From positions 1 through 49,117 of the forward strand of contig WFTL01000173.1 of assembly GCA_015485495.1 (NCBI GenBank): a stretch of 49,117 nt of DNA. Direction: 5' to 3'. This document shows, piece by piece, positions 3,351 to 12,458 of this stretch; within the stretch, counting starts at the first letter, position 1, and the number at the start of each line of letters is the position of its first letter. Made by a program: the position numbers and the translations under genes. The notes beneath the pieces were generated by a model. The model was not told where the DNA came from. It did no database searches and saw only the letters and a program-made list of their open reading frames with translations. This stretch comes from Planctomycetaceae bacterium. Lineage in GTDB: Bacteria > Planctomycetota > Planctomycetia > Planctomycetales > Planctomycetaceae.

Positions 3351-3379
3351 TTGACCCCAGGACCCAGAGGTGTTATGAG
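3351..3379 (+). promoter_or_regulatory. Candidate sigma-70-type promoter of the respiratory cluster
   Basis: TTGACC at 3351-3356 is followed, after exactly 17 bases, by TATGAG at 3374-3379. The matches to the sigma-70 consensus are 5/6 and 4/6. A transcript would start near 3386, about 20 bases before the Rieske ATG. A CATAAT hexamer lies just upstream at 3345-3350 and is an alternative -10 without a good -35. This is a prediction from sequence only. Confidence 0.4.
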
Positions 3380-3406: not shown

Positions 3407-3994
3407 ATGGCATCCGGAGAACACGACCGCATGCAGGAACCATCCGGCGACATTCGGGGGGAACGAACCGATGCGGTGGAATCCCGACCGGACGGTTCGG
3501 AGAGCCGTCGGGGGTTCCTGGAACACGCGGCCGGTGTCACGATGGCCGGGGGACTGACGGCCGGATACGGCATGCTGGTCAGTCACGCGGTCCGTTTTTT
3601 GTACCCTTCTGAGACCGATCCGGGAAGCTGGCAGTTCGTCTGCACTCTGGATGATCTGCAGCCGGGCGACTCGATGCCCTTCACGACACCGGCCGGAGCA
3701 AAACTGGTGGTGGCCCGGCAGGCGGAAGATCCGGCACAGGACGACGCCTTCATCGCTCTTTCCAGCGTCTGTCCGCACCTGGGCTGCAAAGTCCACTGGG
3801 AAGCGAACAACGAACGGTTTTTCTGCCCCTGTCACAACGGCGCCTTCGATGCTCAGGGCAATCCCATTGCCGGTCCGCCCAAAGCGGCCGGTCAGAGTCT
3901 GACACGGTTTCCGCTTCGGATCGAAGGCAACCTGCTCATGGTGTGGGTGCCCGGAACCGGAATTTCCGAGGTGATTTCGGAGACGAACGCATGA
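3407..3994 (+). CDS. Rieske 2Fe-2S protein of a quinol-oxidising bc/b6f-type complex, 195 aa
   Basis: This is the high-potential iron-sulfur subunit that takes one electron from quinol in a Rieske/cytochrome b complex. The cluster motifs are complete: CPHLGC at 122-127 and CPCHNG at 140-145. By family knowledge C122, H124, C140 and H143 bind the 2Fe-2S cluster, and C127 and C142 form the disulfide. A twin-arginine motif ([11 protein letters not shown] at about 33-43) followed by a hydrophobic stretch fits Tat-dependent export with the helix kept as a membrane anchor, as in bc1/b6f Rieske proteins. The start is uncertain: ATG 3407 and ATG 3431 both keep the Tat segment. The stop overlaps the cytochrome b start by four bases (ATGA, 3991-3994), which implies translational coupling and a stable complex of the two proteins. 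Confidence 0.93.
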
Positions 3995-5040
3995 GTCGTC
4001 TGAATGCCTGGATTCAGGAGCGGATTCCGGTTCACGGCGACCAGCTTCGGGAACTGACCAACGAACCGGTTCCCAACCATCTGAAACGCTGGTGGTTCGC
4101 TCTGGGAGGCACCCCGGCCTACCTGTTCGTGGTCCAGGTCGTTACGGGAATTCTGCTGGCGTTCTACTATCAGTCATCGCCGTCCGCGGCATGGGAATCG
4201 GTCCGGTATATTACCGAAGACGCCCGTTACGGCTGGTACATCCGCAGCCTGCACAAGTGGGCTGCGACGCTGATGATCGCATCCGTCATCCTGCACCAGA
4301 TGCGTGTGTATTTCACGGCGGCGTATCGGCGTCCCCGGGAACTGAACTGGGTGATCGGCATGTGCCTGCTGATGTGCACTCTGCTGACCGGATTCACCGG
4401 ATACAGCCTGGTTTTCGAACAGCTCAGCTACTGGGGAGCCACGGTGGCCGCCAACATCAGCGATGCAGTTCCCGTGATCGGATCGTTCGGCAAACAGATG
4501 CTGCTGGCCGGCGACACCTACAACGAACGAACGCTGCCACGGTTCTACATTCTTCATGCGGCCGTTCTGCCGACGACCATCATTCTGCTGATGGCCGTCC
4601 ACATCACATTCATTCGCCTGCACGGCGTCACGGAACTGCATTTCGAAGACGAATCGCCCGATGAACCGGACCATTTCAATTTCTTTCCGGATCACCTGCT
4701 GACGGAACTAACCATTGGCCTGGTGCTGATGATTCTGCTGAGTGCTCTGGCGACGGTCCTGCCGGCCACAATGGGTCCGCGGGCCAATCCGCTGGTCACA
4801 CCGGAAGTCATCAAACCGGAATGGTTTTTCTACGTGTCATTCCGGTGGCTGAAACTGTTTTCACTGAGTGTGGCGGTGATCAGCACCGGGTTCATCATCG
4901 CGGCCATGTTCGTCTGGCCCTGGATTGACCGGCTGCTGATCCGGCTGACCCGCAATGAAGATGCCAGTGTGTATGTGGGGATTGTGGCCACGTTTCTGCT
5001 GATCGGACTGACGGTCTGGGAAGCGGTGGTCACCCACTGA
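3991..5040 (+). CDS. Cytochrome b, b6-like with fused subunit-IV part, 349 aa
   Basis: This is the membrane diheme cytochrome b that partners the Rieske protein. The four heme-b histidines are visible: H88 and H102 (13 residues between) and H189 and H204 (14 residues between). The 14-residue second spacing is the b6 pattern, not the mitochondrial-type one. The segment [11 protein letters not shown] and the part around TGYSL also read like b6. The C-terminal half carries [10 protein letters not shown] (276-279 PEWF), the Qo-site PEWY motif of subunit IV, so b6 and subunit IV are fused in one chain. The cysteine that holds the extra heme ci in plastid b6 (FYCLGG) is replaced here (WWFALGG at about 35-40), so that heme is probably absent. 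The ATG at 3991 is chosen because of the ATGA overlap with the Rieske stop. No cytochrome c1 or f gene lies beside it. The following multiheme cytochromes probably take that role. Confidence 0.93.
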
Positions 5041-5080
5041 CGATCCGTTTTTGTTTTTCTGCCTGCGAGCGGACAGCCTC

Positions 5081-6817
5081 ATGAGTGTCAAAACCAAGCA
5101 ACTGATCGTCGGACTTCTGGGTCTGATGTTCCTTTTGTCTCTCATTTTCGTGCAGGCCATGGAAGTGACGCGGCGACGGCAGGAACTGGGCGTCGGACCG
5201 CGGCATGTGTCCATTCCGGCCAGTTCCAAAGGCTGCGTCGAATGCCACGTGAAATCGTCTCCTGGAATCATCGATCACTGGAAGGGCAGTACCCATGCCG
5301 TCCGGGGCGTCGGGTGTGTCGAATGCCATCAGGCCTCCCGGGAAGACGTGGACGCATTCGATCACTACGGAGCCACCATTGCCACGATCGTCACGCCGCT
5401 GGACTGCGGCCGCTGCCACAAAACGGAAACTCAGGAATTTCTGGCCAGCCATCACGCGAAGGCCGGCAACATTCTGGCCTCTCTGGACAATTTTCTGGCA
5501 GAAACCGTGGAAGGATCCCGCATTCCCTTCAATCCGCATTCGGAAACGCCCGGCATGGACGTGGATGCCGTCAACGGGATGGCCAGTGTGAACGTGGGCT
5601 GCCGGCAGTGCCACGGCAGCAAGGTGGCCCTTCAGGCAACCGACGGCGGTCTGATCACGGTGGACGACCTGCAGCCTGATCTGGCCGGGCAGCCGACCAA
5701 CCCGGAAGCTCTGGCCCGTGTGAAGCGCGATGAAAACGGACGCCCCGTCCTGGATGCCGGAAGCTGGCCGAACACCGGCATCGGACGACTTAATCTGGAC
5801 GGATCTCTGGGTTCCTGCTCGGCCTGTCACTCCCGGCACGATTTTTCTCCGCGGCGCGCCCGTCAGCCGGAAAACTGCGGCAAGTGCCATCTGGGCCCCG
5901 ACCATCCGCAGAAGGAAATCTACGAAGAATCCAAGCATGGTGTGGCCTACCGCGACCTGAAGCACCACATGAATCTGGATGCCAAAGACTGGGTGCTGGG
6001 CAAAGACTACACCCAGGCTCCGACGTGTGCCACGTGTCACATGTCCGGACACACCCGCAACGGCGGGCGGGTCACGCATGATCCGGGCGAACGGATTTCC
6101 TGGACGAACCGACCTCCTGTCAGCCGCCTGATGGATACCGATGCCACCGGAGCCGTCATCACGGAAACCGATCCCGTGGAACGGCAGAAACTGACTGTCA
6201 GCTCCTGGCGGGACAAGCGTCAGGAAATGAAAAACGTCTGCATGCACTGCCACACCCAGAACTACATCAATGCGTTCTACCGGCAGTACGATGACTTCGT
6301 GATCAACTACAACGAAAAGTTCGCGAAACCGGGGCAGCAGATCATGAATGCCCTGCGCGAACAGAACCTGCTGACGAAACCGAACTTCGATGAAGAAATC
6401 GAATGGACCTGGTTTTATCTGTGGCATCACGAAGGACGCCGGGCGCGGCATGGTGCCTCCATGATGGCTCCGGACTACGCTCACTGGCACGGCATGTACG
6501 AAGTCGCCGAACGGTTCTATCAGGAACTGATTCCTCAGGCCCGGGAACTGGCCCATCAGGCTCAGGAACGTCAGCAGACCAGGCAGGCTCAGGCGGTTCT
6601 CGATCTGATCGACGACATTCTCAGCCGTCCCGAACATGAATGGTTCGAAGCGGCAAAGAAGCTGGCGGATCACGCTCCGGAATCACTCACCGCCGAAGCA
6701 GCCGCGGCCGTTCCGGAACAGGATCCGCCGTCGGCCGACACCGACAGCCGTGAAGAACCGACGGAGAACGGTGGTTCATCTGAATCGGAAGAAGCCGACG
6801 GGGATTCGTCCGAATAG
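5081..6817 (+). CDS. Octaheme c-type cytochrome of the hydroxylamine oxidoreductase (HAO) family, 578 aa
   Basis: There are eight CXXCH heme sites at residues 52, 79, 109, 174, 246, 266, 316 and 387, the number found in HAO. The region CSACHSRHDFSPRRARQPEN, followed by CGKCHLGPDH, matches the HAO pattern around hemes 5-6. The D274-H275 pair sits where HAO has its active-site Asp-His. Heme 4 (CRQCH, 174-178) would be the catalytic heme. Y466 in MMAPDYAHWHG lies about where HAO places the tyrosine that cross-links to heme P460. I infer this from remembered sequences, so it needs an alignment. An N-terminal TM segment (about 7-26) would anchor the protein outside the membrane, and the C-terminus is an acidic tail rather than the C-terminal anchor of ammonia-oxidiser HAO. 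ATG 5081 is chosen over an upstream TTG. It sits 40 bp after cytochrome b and 25 bp before napA. It could oxidise hydroxylamine, reduce nitrite or NO, or act as an electron relay. Confidence 0.88.
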   Translation: MSVKTKQLIVGLLGLMFLLSLIFVQAMEVTRRRQELGVGPRHVSIPASSKGCVECHVKSSPGIIDHWKGSTHAVRGVGCVECHQASREDVDAFDHYGATIATIVTPLDCGRCHKTETQEFLASHHAKAGNILASLDNFLAETVEGSRIPFNPHSETPGMDVDAVNGMASVNVGCRQCHGSKVALQATDGGLITVDDLQPDLAGQPTNPEALARVKRDENGRPVLDAGSWPNTGIGRLNLDGSLGSCSACHSRHDFSPRRARQPENCGKCHLGPDHPQKEIYEESKHGVAYRDLKHHMNLDAKDWVLGKDYTQAPTCATCHMSGHTRNGGRVTHDPGERISWTNRPPVSRLMDTDATGAVITETDPVERQKLTVSSWRDKRQEMKNVCMHCHTQNYINAFYRQYDDFVINYNEKFAKPGQQIMNALREQNLLTKPNFDEEIEWTWFYLWHHEGRRARHGASMMAPDYAHWHGMYEVAERFYQELIPQARELAHQAQERQQTRQAQAVLDLIDDILSRPEHEWFEAAKKLADHAPESLTAEAAAAVPEQDPPSADTDSREEPTENGGSSESEEADGDSSE

Positions 6818-6842
6818 TTTCTGAACGGGGAAAACAGGTTCC

Positions 6843-9176
6843 ATGGATCGCAGGCAATTCATCCGCGCAGCAGGTCTCGGAGCCGCCTCGGTCGGCTGCA
6901 GCTGCGAACCGGCCTTCGCCGAGGGCGAAAGCGCGTCGACTCTGACGAATGTCGTCTGGGACAAAGCGCCCTGTCGCTACTGCGGCACCGGATGCGGAGT
7001 CGAGGTGGCCGTCCGGGACAACCGTGTGGTGGCCGTCCGTGGCGATGAAAACAGTCCGGTGAATCGCGGGCTGCTGTGCGCCAAGGGGTATCACCTGCCG
7101 TCGATGCTGTACGGAAAGGACCGTCTGACGCACCCGCTGCGGCGCGATGCTTCCGGAACGCTCACCCGCATTTCCTGGGACGAAGCGCTGGACCTGATCG
7201 CTCAGCATTTCGGTGAGGCCCTGTCGGCGCATGGGCCGGAGTCGGTCGCCGTGTACGGGTCCGGACAGTGGACGATCTTCGACGGCTACGCGGCCCTCAA
7301 ATGGGTCAAGGCCGGCATGCGGAGCAACAACATCGACCCCAACGCCCGCCTGTGCATGGCCAGCGCCGTGATGGGATTCGTCACTCAGTTCCAGTCCGAT
7401 GAACCGATGGGCTGCTACGACGATCTGGACATCGGCCATGATTTTTTCCTGTGGGGAAACAACATGGCGGAAATGCATCCGGTGCTGTTCAGCCGGATTC
7501 TGGAAAACAAACGCCGGAACCCGCACGTGAACATCGTCGACATCGCCACCCGCTGGACTCCCACGAGCGACTTCGCCGACATGTTCGTACAGATTCGGCC
7601 CGGCAGCGACCTGGCTCTGGCCAACGGCATCCTGCATGAACTTGTGCAGACCGGTCAGGTCGATCACGCTTTTCTGCGGGAAAACGTGGTCTTTCGCCGG
7701 GGTATTGAAGATGCGGAAACCATCGGGTACGGCTGTTTCGGCGACCAGGCCGAACGCTACACGTTCAAAGACCAGCCGCGGGACAGTTCCTTCGAAGAAC
7801 TGCAGGAGTTTCTGAAGGACTATTCCCCCGAACGTGTCAGCGACATCACGGGAGTCTCCGCCGCTCAGATTCGCGTCCTGGCCCGCATGTACGGAAATCG
7901 GCAGCGGAATACGGTGAGCCTGTGGTGCATGGGCGTCAATCAGCATGTTCGCGGCACCTGGATGAACAATCTGATCACCGACCTGCATCTGATCACCGGA
8001 AAGATCAGCCGTCCGGGAAACAATCCGTTCAGTCTGACCGGACAGCCGTCGGCCTGCGGAACGGCCCGGGAGGTCGGCACCCTGTCCAACCGGCTGCCGG
8101 CGGACATGGTCGTCATGAAAGAAGAACACCGCCGCAAAGCCGAAGAAATCTGGAAGGTGCCGCCCGGAACGATCAATCCGAAACCGGGTTATCACGCCGT
8201 CGATATGTTTCGGGCGCTGCAGCGTGGTGATGTCAAAACCATGTGGATTCAGGTGACCAATCCCTGGGTGACCCTGCCGAATCTCAGCCGTTTCGAACGG
8301 CGTCCCGGGGACGGCCGCTTTGTGGTTGTCAGCGACATCTATCCCACACCGACAACGGAAGTCGCCGACCTGGTACTGCCCTCCGCCGCCTGGGTGGAAC
8401 GCGAAGGCCTGTTCGGAAATTCCGAACGCCGGACGCACCACTGGAACAAAATGATCGATCCTCCGGGCGAAGCGAAAGAAGACGCTTGGCAGATCATGCA
8501 GGTGGCCCGGCGCATGGGAATGGATCATCTGTTCCCATGGGCCGATCAGGACGACTGGCATGAACGCATGTACGAAGAATACCGCCGATTCACGATCGGT
8601 ACCGGAAAGGATCTGGCCGGCTACGAACAGCTGCGGGCCACGCGCGGCCTGCGCTGGCCGGTGGTAAAAGGAAAAGAAACCCGCTACCGCTATGCCGCCG
8701 GACATGATCCCTATGTGAAGAAGAAATCGGGCGTCCACTTCTACAAGGCGAAAGGATACGGCGAAAAAGCGGCCATCTGGCTGCGCCCCTGGCATCCTCC
8801 GGCCGAAGTCCCGGACGACGAATATCCGTTCTGGCTGTCCACCGGCAGGATTCTGGAACACTGGCACACCGGTTCCATGACACGCCGGGTTCCTGAACTC
8901 CATCAGGCGGCTCCGGCCGCCTGGGTCGAAATCAATCGCGCCGATGCCCAGGAACTGAATGTGCAGAACGGCGATGCGGTCCGCCTGGTCAGTCGGCGGG
9001 GCGAGATCGTGCTCGAAGCCCGCATCGATGACCGCGGCCGCCCGCCCCGCCGCAGCCTGTTCGTCCCCTTCTTCGACGAATCCCGGCTGGTCAACCTGCT
9101 GACCCTGGACGCCATGGACAACATCAGCAAGGAACCGGACTTCAAGAAATGCGCCGTCCGTGTGGAAAAGGTGTGA
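6843..9176 (+). CDS. napA: Periplasmic nitrate reductase catalytic subunit (NapA type), 777 aa
   Basis: A molybdenum-bisMGD enzyme reducing nitrate to nitrite in the periplasm. The 4Fe-4S motif is C44, C47, C51 and C79, followed by K81, the lysine between the cluster and the pterin. NARLCMASAVMGF places C171 as the expected Mo ligand, which distinguishes NapA from Asp-ligated Nar and Ser or SeCys enzymes. NapA signatures are strong throughout: SRPGNNPFSLTGQPSACGTA, ERRTHHWNK, GRILEHWHTGSMTRR and SKEPDFKKCAV. The N-terminus MDRRQFIRAAGLGAA is a twin-arginine Tat signal. At 777 residues it is shorter than E. coli NapA and closer to the monomeric NapA of Desulfovibrio. GGGGAAAACAGG precedes the ATG. 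The next gene starts 4 bp after the stop. No napD chaperone or napC/napGH lies in the window, so electrons probably come from the neighbouring Rieske/b and multiheme proteins. Confidence 0.95.
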   Translation: MDRRQFIRAAGLGAASVGCSCEPAFAEGESASTLTNVVWDKAPCRYCGTGCGVEVAVRDNRVVAVRGDENSPVNRGLLCAKGYHLPSMLYGKDRLTHPLRRDASGTLTRISWDEALDLIAQHFGEALSAHGPESVAVYGSGQWTIFDGYAALKWVKAGMRSNNIDPNARLCMASAVMGFVTQFQSDEPMGCYDDLDIGHDFFLWGNNMAEMHPVLFSRILENKRRNPHVNIVDIATRWTPTSDFADMFVQIRPGSDLALANGILHELVQTGQVDHAFLRENVVFRRGIEDAETIGYGCFGDQAERYTFKDQPRDSSFEELQEFLKDYSPERVSDITGVSAAQIRVLARMYGNRQRNTVSLWCMGVNQHVRGTWMNNLITDLHLITGKISRPGNNPFSLTGQPSACGTAREVGTLSNRLPADMVVMKEEHRRKAEEIWKVPPGTINPKPGYHAVDMFRALQRGDVKTMWIQVTNPWVTLPNLSRFERRPGDGRFVVVSDIYPTPTTEVADLVLPSAAWVEREGLFGNSERRTHHWNKMIDPPGEAKEDAWQIMQVARRMGMDHLFPWADQDDWHERMYEEYRRFTIGTGKDLAGYEQLRATRGLRWPVVKGKETRYRYAAGHDPYVKKKSGVHFYKAKGYGEKAAIWLRPWHPPAEVPDDEYPFWLSTGRILEHWHTGSMTRRVPELHQAAPAAWVEINRADAQELNVQNGDAVRLVSRRGEIVLEARIDDRGRPPRRSLFVPFFDESRLVNLLTLDAMDNISKEPDFKKCAVRVEKV

Positions 9177-9180
9177 AACG

Positions 9181-9756
9181 ATGCGTCCCTTTTCACTCCG
9201 TTCGATGACGGCCGGCCTCATCGCCCTGCTCACCGCCACCGTGCTGATCGGCTGCCGGCGAACGGAACAGCCCACCGCACAAAAGCCGGCTGGTGCGGCC
9301 GTGCGGGCCACACGACGTGCCTACGCAGGAGCTCCCCCCGTCATTCCCCACGGACCTCTGAAAGCCAGTTGCGTCACCTGCCACACGGAATCCGGAGATC
9401 AGATTGCCGGTCTGGGATTCGCTCCGGCCAATCCGCACATCGGCACGCGGTACGCCGGTGCCACGCAGAACTGCCGGCAGTGCCACCTGTTCCGAAATTC
9501 CGACGCCCTGTTTGCAGAAAGTTCCTTCAGTGGCCTTCGTCACGAAGAACGTCGCGGCAGTCGCGCGGGACCCGGAGCGCCGCCGCGAATACCGCATCAG
9601 AAACTCATGCGGGAAAACTGTCGAGCCTGCCACACCGGCCCTTCTGCTCGTCCCGAAATCCGCTGCACCCACCCGGAACGAACGAACTGCCGCCAGTGTC
9701 ACCTGTTCGAAACGACGTCCGAACTGTGGACGGCCGCCGTTCCCGGGTCCCCGTAG
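9181..9756 (+). CDS. Tetraheme c lipoprotein made of two NapB-like diheme halves, 191 aa
   Basis: This small periplasmic cytochrome is probably the electron donor to NapA. It has four CXXCH sites at 64-68, 98-102, 147-151 and 170-174. A hydrophobic signal ends in VLIGC, so C25 is likely lipidated. The protein is internally duplicated: APPVIPHGPLKASCVTCHT...NCRQCHLF (51-104) repeats as APPRIPHQKLMRENCRACHT...NCRQCHLF (133-176). The PPxIPH segment before the first heme of each half recalls NapB, the diheme partner of NapA, so this looks like two NapB-like diheme units in tandem. It starts four bases after napA stops, preceded by GGAAAAGG, so the two are surely co-translated. An ATG at 9160 overlapping napA is less likely. 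It is the last gene of the block, and a promoter-like site follows. Assignment to the NapB family is inference from motifs. Confidence 0.85.
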   Translation: MRPFSLRSMTAGLIALLTATVLIGCRRTEQPTAQKPAGAAVRATRRAYAGAPPVIPHGPLKASCVTCHTESGDQIAGLGFAPANPHIGTRYAGATQNCRQCHLFRNSDALFAESSFSGLRHEERRGSRAGPGAPPRIPHQKLMRENCRACHTGPSARPEIRCTHPERTNCRQCHLFETTSELWTAAVPGSP

Positions 9757-9895: not shown

Positions 9896-9972
9896 AAAGT
9901 GGATGAACTTATCTGGTTTTGTCGTGGCGGAAGAGGTCCGTCGCGGGCAGATTGAAAGGGAGACCATCAGGA

Positions 9973-11262
9973 ATGGGCATCTGCAGTCGCCTTGTTGTGT
10001 TCATCTGCCTGGCCGCACTGCTGAGATGTTCTGCCGTTCGGAGCCAGGAAAGCGACTACGAAAATGCGCCGATTCACTACAGCACGGCGGAAGTGAATGA
10101 TCCGGTACAGAAACTTGTCACCCGTCTGGAATCCGGAGACATCCGGCTGGAACGGGACGGAGTCCATGGCTGGCTGCGTTCTCTTCTGGAGGCACTGGAC
10201 GTCCCCGAATCATCTCAGACGCTCGTGTTTTCCAAAACGAGTCTGCAGTTTCGCCGCATCAGTCCATCCCGCCCCCGGGCACTGTATTTCAGCGATGACG
10301 TGTATGTCGGCTGGGTCGATGGCGGCACGGTGATCGAACTGGCGGCCGTCGATCCGCAGCAGGGAGCCATTTTTTACACGGTCGATCAGACACGGACCGA
10401 TCGCCCGGTGATCAGACGGGATCAGGGAGAATGCCTGGCCTGTCATGCGAGTGCCCGCACGCAGCGCGTTCCCGGTTTTCTGGTGCGGTCCGTGTTTCCG
10501 CGTGAGGACGGCCAGCCGGATTTCCGCTTCGGTTCAGAAACCACCGACCACACGACCTCCTTTTCCGACCGTTACGGCGGCTGGTATGTGACCGGACAGC
10601 ATGGAACGATGACACACCGAGGCAACGCAGTGCTCAGCGGCGATGCGGACGACGCCGTTCTGGTTCGCCCCGACCCGAACGATCAGACGGGACTGCCGTC
10701 CGGTGTGAAGACGGCCCGCTACCTGCGTCCGACCAGCGATCTGGTGGCCCTCATGCTGCTGGAACATCAGACGCAGTTTCATAATCACGTCACGCGGGCT
10801 TCCTTCACGGCCCGGCGGGCCCTGCATCAGCAGCAGGAAATGAACCGTCTTCTGGACCGCCCCCGTTCCTATCTCAGCGAAAGCACGCAGCGGCGAATCA
10901 GGACGGTGGCCGAACAGCTTGTCGACTATCTGCTGTTCTGTGGTGAATACCGGCTGACATCGCCGGTATCCGGCAGTGCGGAATTTCAGTCCGATTTTCT
11001 GTCACGGGCCATCCGCGACCGGGAAGGCCGATCGCTGCGGGATCTGGACCTGCAGACGCGTCTGCTGCGGTATCCGTGCAGCTGGCTGATCTATTCTGAA
11101 TCGTTTCGTTCGCTGCCGGAACCGGTTCTGCTCCATATCCGGCGTCGCATGCTGGACATCCTCAGCGGCCAGGACGATTCGGAAAAATATGATCACCTGT
11201 CACCGGACGACCGCCGGGCCGTTCTTTCCATCCTGCAGGACACCCACCCCCTGTTCTCCTGA
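9973..11262 (+). CDS. Exported monoheme c-type protein of unknown function, 429 aa
   Basis: The protein has a signal peptide-like N-terminus (about 1-24) and one CXXCH site (CLACH, 154-158). Around it are segments I recognise from an uncharacterised bacterial family: SDDVYVGWVDGG, GAIFYTVDQ, RVPGFLVRSVFP and YGGWYVTGQHGTMTHRGN. I know no experimental function for this family. The C-terminal third is helix-rich and charged with no further heme site. GGGAG sits about 10 bases before ATG 9973. Its position after NapA and the tetraheme protein suggests a link to the same respiratory chain, but the 216-bp gap and candidate promoter leave it possibly independent. A redox enzyme with a single heme, or a heme-carrying adhesion or sensor protein, would also fit. 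Confidence 0.75.
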   Translation: MGICSRLVVFICLAALLRCSAVRSQESDYENAPIHYSTAEVNDPVQKLVTRLESGDIRLERDGVHGWLRSLLEALDVPESSQTLVFSKTSLQFRRISPSRPRALYFSDDVYVGWVDGGTVIELAAVDPQQGAIFYTVDQTRTDRPVIRRDQGECLACHASARTQRVPGFLVRSVFPREDGQPDFRFGSETTDHTTSFSDRYGGWYVTGQHGTMTHRGNAVLSGDADDAVLVRPDPNDQTGLPSGVKTARYLRPTSDLVALMLLEHQTQFHNHVTRASFTARRALHQQQEMNRLLDRPRSYLSESTQRRIRTVAEQLVDYLLFCGEYRLTSPVSGSAEFQSDFLSRAIRDREGRSLRDLDLQTRLLRYPCSWLIYSESFRSLPEPVLLHIRRRMLDILSGQDDSEKYDHLSPDDRRAVLSILQDTHPLFS

Positions 11263-11861
11263 CGGGCCGGCGCGTGTTTGCCGATGGTGGCATCTACGCA
11301 CGCCCGTTCCGGGCGAAAGCTGGCGGTGAGTGTGGACCTGGGCACGTGCCGACCGAATTCCGGGCTCGTGTCCCTGGGTGCAGCCCCGGGAAACGATGCC
11401 GAAATGCTCACCGATGTGCTCCGCGATCACGGCTTCACGGCCTGCGAACTGAGTTTCCGTGCTGCCCGCCAGTGGGGATGAAGTGCCCCATTTTCTGCAC
11501 TCGGAATCATGAGAGTGCGGAGCGGATTGCCGCGGACCACTCGCCATTGCGCGACGTGGATCGGCAGCGACTGGTTGACCGCTGTCGCAGGCGAAAGTCG
11601 AAACTCGCCCGGTTCTGCCGCTGACCTGGCATCGGGCCGCCAGTCCCCTTCGTCAATCCCGGACGCTGCCGACGACATCGTCCGGGGGACTGACAGCGGG
11701 CGCTACGAGCCCGCGCAGGCGAACGAACCGACTGAACACACGGGCGCGATGCCGGCCGGCGGCCGGGCGACCGTGGGGATGACCGGCATCCGGGTTGCCG
11801 GATTCGGCCGGGGTGTCTACTGTGAGGTCCGGGAAGATCGTGGCAAGGGAGTGATTCCACG
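11263..11861. other. 599-bp stretch with no supported gene
   Basis: Several short open frames exist on both strands but none has a consistent coding look, ribosome site or recognisable motif. One plus frame (about 11278-11481) contains the protein-like segment DAEMLTDVLRDHGFTACELS and could be a remnant of a degraded gene. The 3' end holds the leader and AGGGAG site of the metallopeptidase gene at 11862. Confidence 0.3.
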
Positions 11862-12458
11862 GTGAAACAGGGCTGTTTCGATATCTGCCGGGCTTTGCGG
11901 CGGCTGTGTGAAGACATCAGCCGGCGGCATGAACAGTTCCATCATGTGGACATGGATCGGGTGGCGGTGACGTATGCGCAGACCCGGTCGCCGGTAGAAT
12001 GGGGGCTGCAGGCGAAGCTGACGCCCATGCGTTTCGAAGGCGGTGCGCTGACATGCGTCCGGGACGGACGTCGCTGGTGCGCTCAGCGGCTGTTTCAGGA
12101 CGGGCGGGAAATGCTGTACATCCTGACGTTCTACCTGCCGCGGTTCCTCAATCTGCCTTTCGAGGAGAAGCTCGTGACGGTGTTTCATGAGCTGTACCAC
12201 ATCAGTCCGCTGTTCGATGGAGATATTCGCCGGTTTTCCGGAGCCTGTTACGTGCATACGGGCAGCCAGGCGGCCTACGACCGGCAGATGGCGGTGTTTG
12301 CCCGCGAATATCTGGCCGATCTGCCGTCGGATCGGTTTCCGGAATTCCTCCGCTGCGATTTTCGAGAACTGCGAAGGCGTTACGGTGCCGTTGTCGGGCT
12401 GCGTCTGGCCGTGCCGCGGCTCATTCCCATGGACAGCACCGAAGACGATGCCGCCTGA
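11862..12458 (+). CDS. Putative zinc metallopeptidase with HELYH motif, 198 aa
   Basis: A compact soluble protein with HELYHISPLFDGD at 109-121. H109 and H113 would bind zinc, with E110 as the catalytic base. The block FYLPRFLNLPFEEKLVTVFHE just before it resembles small metallopeptidases of the putative phage metallopeptidase type (PF18894-like), which also occur in bacterial chromosomes. No signal peptide is visible. The start is GTG 11862, with AGGGAG upstream. The next gene is convergent, 109 bp away, so it is apparently a single-gene unit. The third zinc ligand is not obvious; H137 or a downstream acidic residue could serve. Assignment to the zincin class is good, but the substrate is unknown. 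Confidence 0.7.
   Translation: MKQGCFDICRALRRLCEDISRRHEQFHHVDMDRVAVTYAQTRSPVEWGLQAKLTPMRFEGGALTCVRDGRRWCAQRLFQDGREMLYILTFYLPRFLNLPFEEKLVTVFHELYHISPLFDGDIRRFSGACYVHTGSQAAYDRQMAVFAREYLADLPSDRFPEFLRCDFRELRRRYGAVVGLRLAVPRLIPMDSTEDDAA

Follow-up and report, generated by a model that had tools for sequence, protein, structure and literature searches.

The window (the whole stretch of 49,117 nucleotides that was analysed) carries a compact cluster of five genes that probably encodes a respiratory chain leading from menaquinol past nitrite. A menaquinol-oxidising Rieske/cytochrome b complex would drive the reduction of nitrate by NapA and a four-haem partner, NapB2, as well as the reduction of nitrite toward hydroxylamine or ammonium by an octahaem cytochrome c (OCC) of the HAO family.

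Organization of the gene cluster

The five genes occupy positions 3407-9756, all on the + strand, in the order Rieske, cytochrome b, OCC, NapA and a protein with four CXXCH motifs. They are separated by -4, 40, 25 and 4 bp, in exact agreement with a preliminary description of this DNA. The features of the region are as follows.

3407-3994, + strand: Rieske [2Fe-2S] protein (Pfam Rieske, 51.6 bits; ligand motifs)
3991-5040, + strand: cytochrome b of the fused b6 + subunit-IV type (Pfam PF00033, PF13631 and PF00032; Cytochrome_B, Cytochrom_B_C)
5081-6817, + strand: HAO-family OCC with an N-terminal membrane anchor (eight CXXCH motifs; IhOCC/HAO relatives in PDB)
6843-9176, + strand: NapA, catalytic subunit of periplasmic nitrate reductase (NCBIfam cut-offs exceeded; E. 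coli NapA 2nya, E = 5.5e-242)
9181-9756, + strand: NapB2, four-haem protein best read as two NapB-like dihaem halves (profile of 11 homologues; PF03892 on the first halves)
9919-11262, + strand: 447-aa protein with one CXXCH, the next co-directional gene (no Pfam or NCBIfam family matched)

The gene set is not a chance arrangement: about 95 loci show the order Rieske-cytochrome b-OCC, and 21 genomes have all five genes in the order seen here. It is uncertain whether the 447-aa gene at 9919-11262 belongs to the module; a 42% homologue lies upstream of Rieske-cytochrome b-OCC in locus L104. The promoter thought plausible at 3351-3379 did not hold up: a consensus scan gave no match there, and promoter-like sites in the region are no more common than in shuffled sequence. 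The region is also crossed by long ORFs in antisense, 6687-9311 on the - strand being one example, but these were not taken as genes. They lie opposite genes of strong homology in GC-rich DNA and are read as shadow ORFs of such sequence.

The Rieske/cytochrome b pair and the octahaem cytochrome

The Rieske protein begins with a twin-arginine sequence (SRRGFLE) and contains the 2Fe-2S ligands CPHLGC and CPCHNG, the ligand motif being kept in 39 linked homologues. Cytochrome b possesses two His pairs spaced 13 and 14 residues apart, as read from the sequence, and the Qo-site motif PEWF, of which PEW is found in 39/39 linked homologues. The 2Fe-2S ligand motifs, the two His pairs and the PEW motif together mark the pair as proteins of the Rieske/cytochrome b complex type. 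There is no gene for cytochrome c1 or f in the cluster; in the approximately 95 loci it is the OCC that stands in that position.

The OCC combines eight CXXCH motifs with a sequence match to the HAO family. Its best match in PDB is IhOCC of Ignicoccus (4qo5), followed by HAO-family proteins of Kuenenia and Nitrosomonas. The pair D274-H275 aligns with the active-site Asp-His of HAO and is invariant in 13 relatives. The hallmarks of NrfA and octahaem nitrite reductases were looked for as well: there is no CXXCK (8/8 motifs are CXXCH) and no match to PF02335. The window OCC and nearly all proteins compared with it have a C-terminal Tyr; among 137, five differ, with Trp, Phe or Ile at this position. 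The OCC profile alignments, including those against anammox HDH/HAO-like proteins, end before the region of the Tyr that cross-links the P460 haem in HAO. OCCs linked to Rieske/cytochrome b have an N-terminal membrane helix that looks uncleaved, whereas those linked to NrfCD have apparent signal peptides; the uncleaved-looking helix fits an OCC that is a subunit of the Rieske/cytochrome b complex or its tight partner. The AlphaFold2 prediction of the OCC has a mean pLDDT of 52. In anammox-related genomes (L081, L082), the OCC lies beside four-haem/NrfC/NrfD genes, and Trp replaces the C-terminal Tyr.

NapA and the four-haem protein

NapA exceeds the NCBIfam cut-offs of both TIGR01706 (939.6 vs. 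930.55 bits) and NF010055 (969.6 vs. 904 bits). Its Tat motif RRQFIRAA, the 4Fe-4S cysteines in CRYCGTGCGVEV...LCAKGY and the Mo-ligand Cys in LCMASAV (Mo-binding motif CMASAV) align with 2nya. In the NapA tree, the window protein falls in a clade of 20 sequences with 100/100 support, which is found only next to Rieske/b-OCC: 19/20 are OCC-linked (18 with Rieske/b seen, one at a contig end) and 1/20 is on a split contig. A molybdoenzyme downstream in L061 (41% to NapA) was set aside as probably not NapA on account of its very long branch in this tree.

The most fitting reading of the four-haem protein is a NapB duplicated in tandem, hence the name NapB2. It scores 12.1 bits against Pfam NapB PF03892 as a whole and 17.0 bits over its first half, below the gathering score of 25.1, so it is to be regarded as NapB-like and homologous, not as a Pfam-defined NapB. 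A profile built from 11 four-haem homologues has the NapB 1ogy_B as its top PDB match (E = 2.1e-4), with the NapBs 1jni and 3ml1_B among the top five. The first halves of the homologues match PF03892 in 11/11 cases (best E = 2.8e-6), and the second half repeats the pattern APPxIPH...CXXCH...QCH. This protein is also the sole NapB match in the host genome. The profile match and the PF03892 matches of the first halves contradict the initial view that NapB is missing here.

In 20 further planctomycete NapA loci, a four-haem protein of the NapB2 type adjoins NapA in all but one, whether an OCC is nearby or not (one of these proteins is incomplete at the end of the examined stretch); the exception, L188, has a dihaem NapB. 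Among planctomycete NapA-NapB2 loci without OCC, the majority (L179-L187, L189, L194-L196) show a divergently oriented four-haem/NrfC/NrfD cluster on the opposite strand, which is possibly their quinol donor.

Conservation and evolution of the cluster

OCC relatives occur in 106 of the 392 genomes of a phylum sample. Rieske, cytochrome b and OCC stand together in about 95 of 140 loci examined, and NapA comes next in about 28 of those. The conserved synteny for which the preliminary description proposed to search does extend beyond the host: the complete five-gene order was counted by hand from tables in 21 genomes, duplicates removed, belonging by record titles to at least five phyla (Planctomycetota, Acidobacteriota, Gemmatimonadota, Krumholzibacteriota and Myxococcota). 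Recurring in several phyla, the gene order looks widespread. The five genes need not occur together, since the Nap part is often missing at Rieske/b-OCC loci. A quick tree of OCC requires at least 4 changes between presence and absence of Nap on supported branches, and 15 under parsimony, and the nearest relative of the window OCC has no Nap at its site. Thus, Rieske/b-OCC is a stable core that has gained a particular NapA-NapB2 lineage, shed it, or both, many times. In one planctomycete locus (L032), a five-haem protein of 493 aa is encoded upstream of Rieske-cytochrome b-OCC at 1424-2902.

Respiratory inventory of the host

The host genome has no NrfA, no NirK and no match to PF03264 (NapC/NrfH). 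A complete separate napC/napGH and nrf system, which the preliminary description had named as evidence that would tell against it, would include NapC/NrfH and NrfA. With these two absent and the gene order conserved, its central proposal, that Rieske/b drives a Nap chain which includes an HAO-like protein and probably goes past nitrite in a non-anammox planctomycete, gains support. There is no NorB in the PF00115 family of the host, whose two members are encoded within gene clusters for aa3- and cbb3-type oxidases. The hydroxylamine reductase Hcp is represented by a PF03063 match on contig C125. The inventory of the host makes NO unlikely as a free product, hydroxylamine or ammonium being more likely.

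Nap is not the sole nitrate reductase of the host, since separate NarGHI genes are present; a Nar-NarK cluster is followed by alternative-complex-III genes (read by eye from translations). On host contig C97 (L207), NarH, NarI and two NarK-like transporters adjoin an ActA/ActB alternative-complex-III cluster. A candidate NrfA of the same genome (L092) was rejected as a five-haem ActA-like protein beside NarK. The host has three cytochrome b loci; on contig C86 there is a second one of the Rieske/b type, behind which a protein of at least 1286 aa carrying eight CXXCH motifs is encoded (L204, 7142-10999).

Function of the octahaem cytochrome

The preliminary description gave two roles for the OCC, enzyme or cytochrome c1-like relay. 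The distribution of the family makes an enzymatic role the most likely one for the OCC, rather than that of a stand-in for c1, and we propose that it acts as a nitrite/hydroxylamine reductase. Besides Rieske/b, OCC relatives are found beside an NrfC/NrfD-type quinol module (L077-L079, L081, L082, L171, L197) and, in marine Gammaproteobacteria, beside a NapC/NrfH-type module (L157, L159, L163, L165, L167, L169, L172). Feeding by three unrelated quinol modules is the pattern expected for a quinol-linked terminal enzyme and argues for catalysis. So does the fact that NapA, to which a relay would pass its electrons, is missing from the majority of Rieske/b-OCC loci (64 without vs. 28 with NapA). 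The third argument is a near-mutual exclusion with NrfA: among 50 NapA-bearing planctomycete genomes, 20 have OCC only, 16 NrfA only, 1 both and 13 neither (Fisher p = 2e-4, with kinship ignored and no tree correction). Accordingly, the role of enzyme stands, while the equal standing of the relay is lost in view of the locus counts and the NrfCD- and NrfH-type partners. The gammaproteobacterial isolates with an OCC next to a NapC/NrfH-type four-haem protein include Shewanella nanhaiensis, Neiella, Aliagarivorans, Grimontia and Photobacterium (L163 at 9950-12057, L157, L165, L167, L169, L172); Grimontia celer has two OCC copies.

It is unlikely that the OCC is a non-catalytic electron relay, a structural substitute for c1/f through which the Rieske protein feeds NapB2-NapA and other periplasmic acceptors. 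Its place between Rieske/b and NapA, its membrane anchor and the lack of a c1/f gene fit such a role, as does its retention in loci without NapA, where oxidases could be fed; however, relatives paired with NrfCD- or NrfH-type modules need no c1, the Asp and His of the HAO active site do not vary, and OCC and NrfA hardly ever occur together in NapA-bearing genomes. Still less probable is the formation of NO from nitrite, which would make the chain a partial denitrification. This reaction has been proposed for the HAO-like OCC of the Kuenenia Rieske/b complex Kuste4569-4574 (PMC12954380), and planctomycete Hao-like OCCs have been called Onr candidates yielding NO or ammonium (PMC11266412). Against it are the lack of NorB among the PF00115 proteins of the host and the fact that the enzyme with which the OCC shows genomic exclusion, NrfA, forms ammonium. 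An oxidative OCC, which would clear hydroxylamine (or NO) and deliver the electrons to NapA or oxidases in what would be a detoxification cluster, seems the least probable of all. Membership of the HAO family and the Tyr near the C-terminus would suit it, but the linked modules oxidise quinol, the linked enzymes are reductases, five relatives have Trp, Phe or Ile instead of the Tyr, and the closest solved relative is IhOCC and not the oxidative HAOs.

Proposed mechanism

Classical nitrate ammonification linked to NapC or NrfH is thought not to generate a proton gradient when quinol is oxidised. Such a gradient would be generated if a Rieske/b complex were coupled to an HAO-type nitrite reductase. 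Complex formation, the type of quinone, the route of electrons, the direction of the reaction and its product are what we infer from gene content and protein families, and the favoured scheme of quinol-driven nitrate and nitrite reduction would run as follows. Cytochrome b and the Rieske protein would oxidise menaquinol by bifurcation, with protons released outside. High-potential electrons would pass from the Rieske protein to the OCC, and also to NapB2 and on to NapA, where nitrate would be reduced to nitrite. The OCC would then reduce the nitrite made by NapA to hydroxylamine or ammonium; cytoplasmic Hcp could finish the hydroxylamine. A bolder, tentative version is that Rieske, cytochrome b and OCC make up one physical proton-translocating quinol:nitrite reductase without c1 or f, with NapA-NapB2 docked. 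Energy would then be conserved by a single membrane assembly in the reduction of nitrate as well as in that of nitrite.

If the scheme is right, many NrfA-less planctomycetes, acidobacteria, gemmatimonads and myxobacteria could be nitrate/nitrite ammonifiers missed by marker-gene surveys, and HAO-like genes in such genomes would be no sign of nitrification or anammox.

Comparison with known systems

A Rieske/b complex driving Nap and a Rieske/b complex with an HAO-like OCC are both known principles; the compact set of genes looks little-described. One close precedent is Caldithrix abyssi, in which a single locus combines NapA and a tetrahaem carrier with Rieske, cytochrome b and an HAO-type nitrite reductase (epsilon-Hao), and for which the same electron route has been proposed (PMC5317091). 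The Caldithrix locus has no NapB or NapC and has NapG, NapH, the carrier NapM and another gene order (PMC5317091), whereas the present cluster has no NapGH, its OCC is membrane-anchored and adjoins cytochrome b, and its carrier is the putative duplicated NapB. In Campylobacter jejuni, deletion showed that Nap depends on the electrogenic Rieske/b complex Qcr (QcrABC), i.e., a menaquinol-oxidising Rieske/b complex drives Nap in place of NapC (PMC6195509). Qcr serves respiration in general and has a cytochrome c of its own (PMC6195509); the present cluster encodes no c1-type protein, the OCC being in that place. Kuenenia Kuste4569-4574 likewise joins an HAO-like octahaem cytochrome to a Rieske/b complex, but its cytochrome b6 and subunit IV are split, it includes another multihaem subunit as well as an NAD(P) oxidoreductase, and no Nap is described in the complex (PMC12954380). 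Nautilia profundicola offers a parallel in function: its reverse-HURM pathway of nitrate ammonification by Nap, an HAO-type nitrite reductase and Hcp has been proposed and is physiologically supported (PMC3701875). There, electrons reach HaoA via a NapC/NrfH-type protein without Rieske/b (PMC3701875), a family to which the window host has no PF03264 match.

The literature searched, many subscription papers lying outside its reach, gave no description of the compact five-gene set, NapB2 or the spread among phyla. The preliminary statement that no described complex has exactly this set therefore holds, narrowly, for the exact set, and has to be qualified by the close precedents in Caldithrix (PMC5317091) and C. 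jejuni (PMC6195509). Among the loci of the present analysis, two from Bacteroidales/Chlorobiota (L152, L155) share the order Rieske-cytochrome b-OCC-NapA; unlike in the window, NapA is followed there by canonical NapG, NapH and a dihaem NapB.
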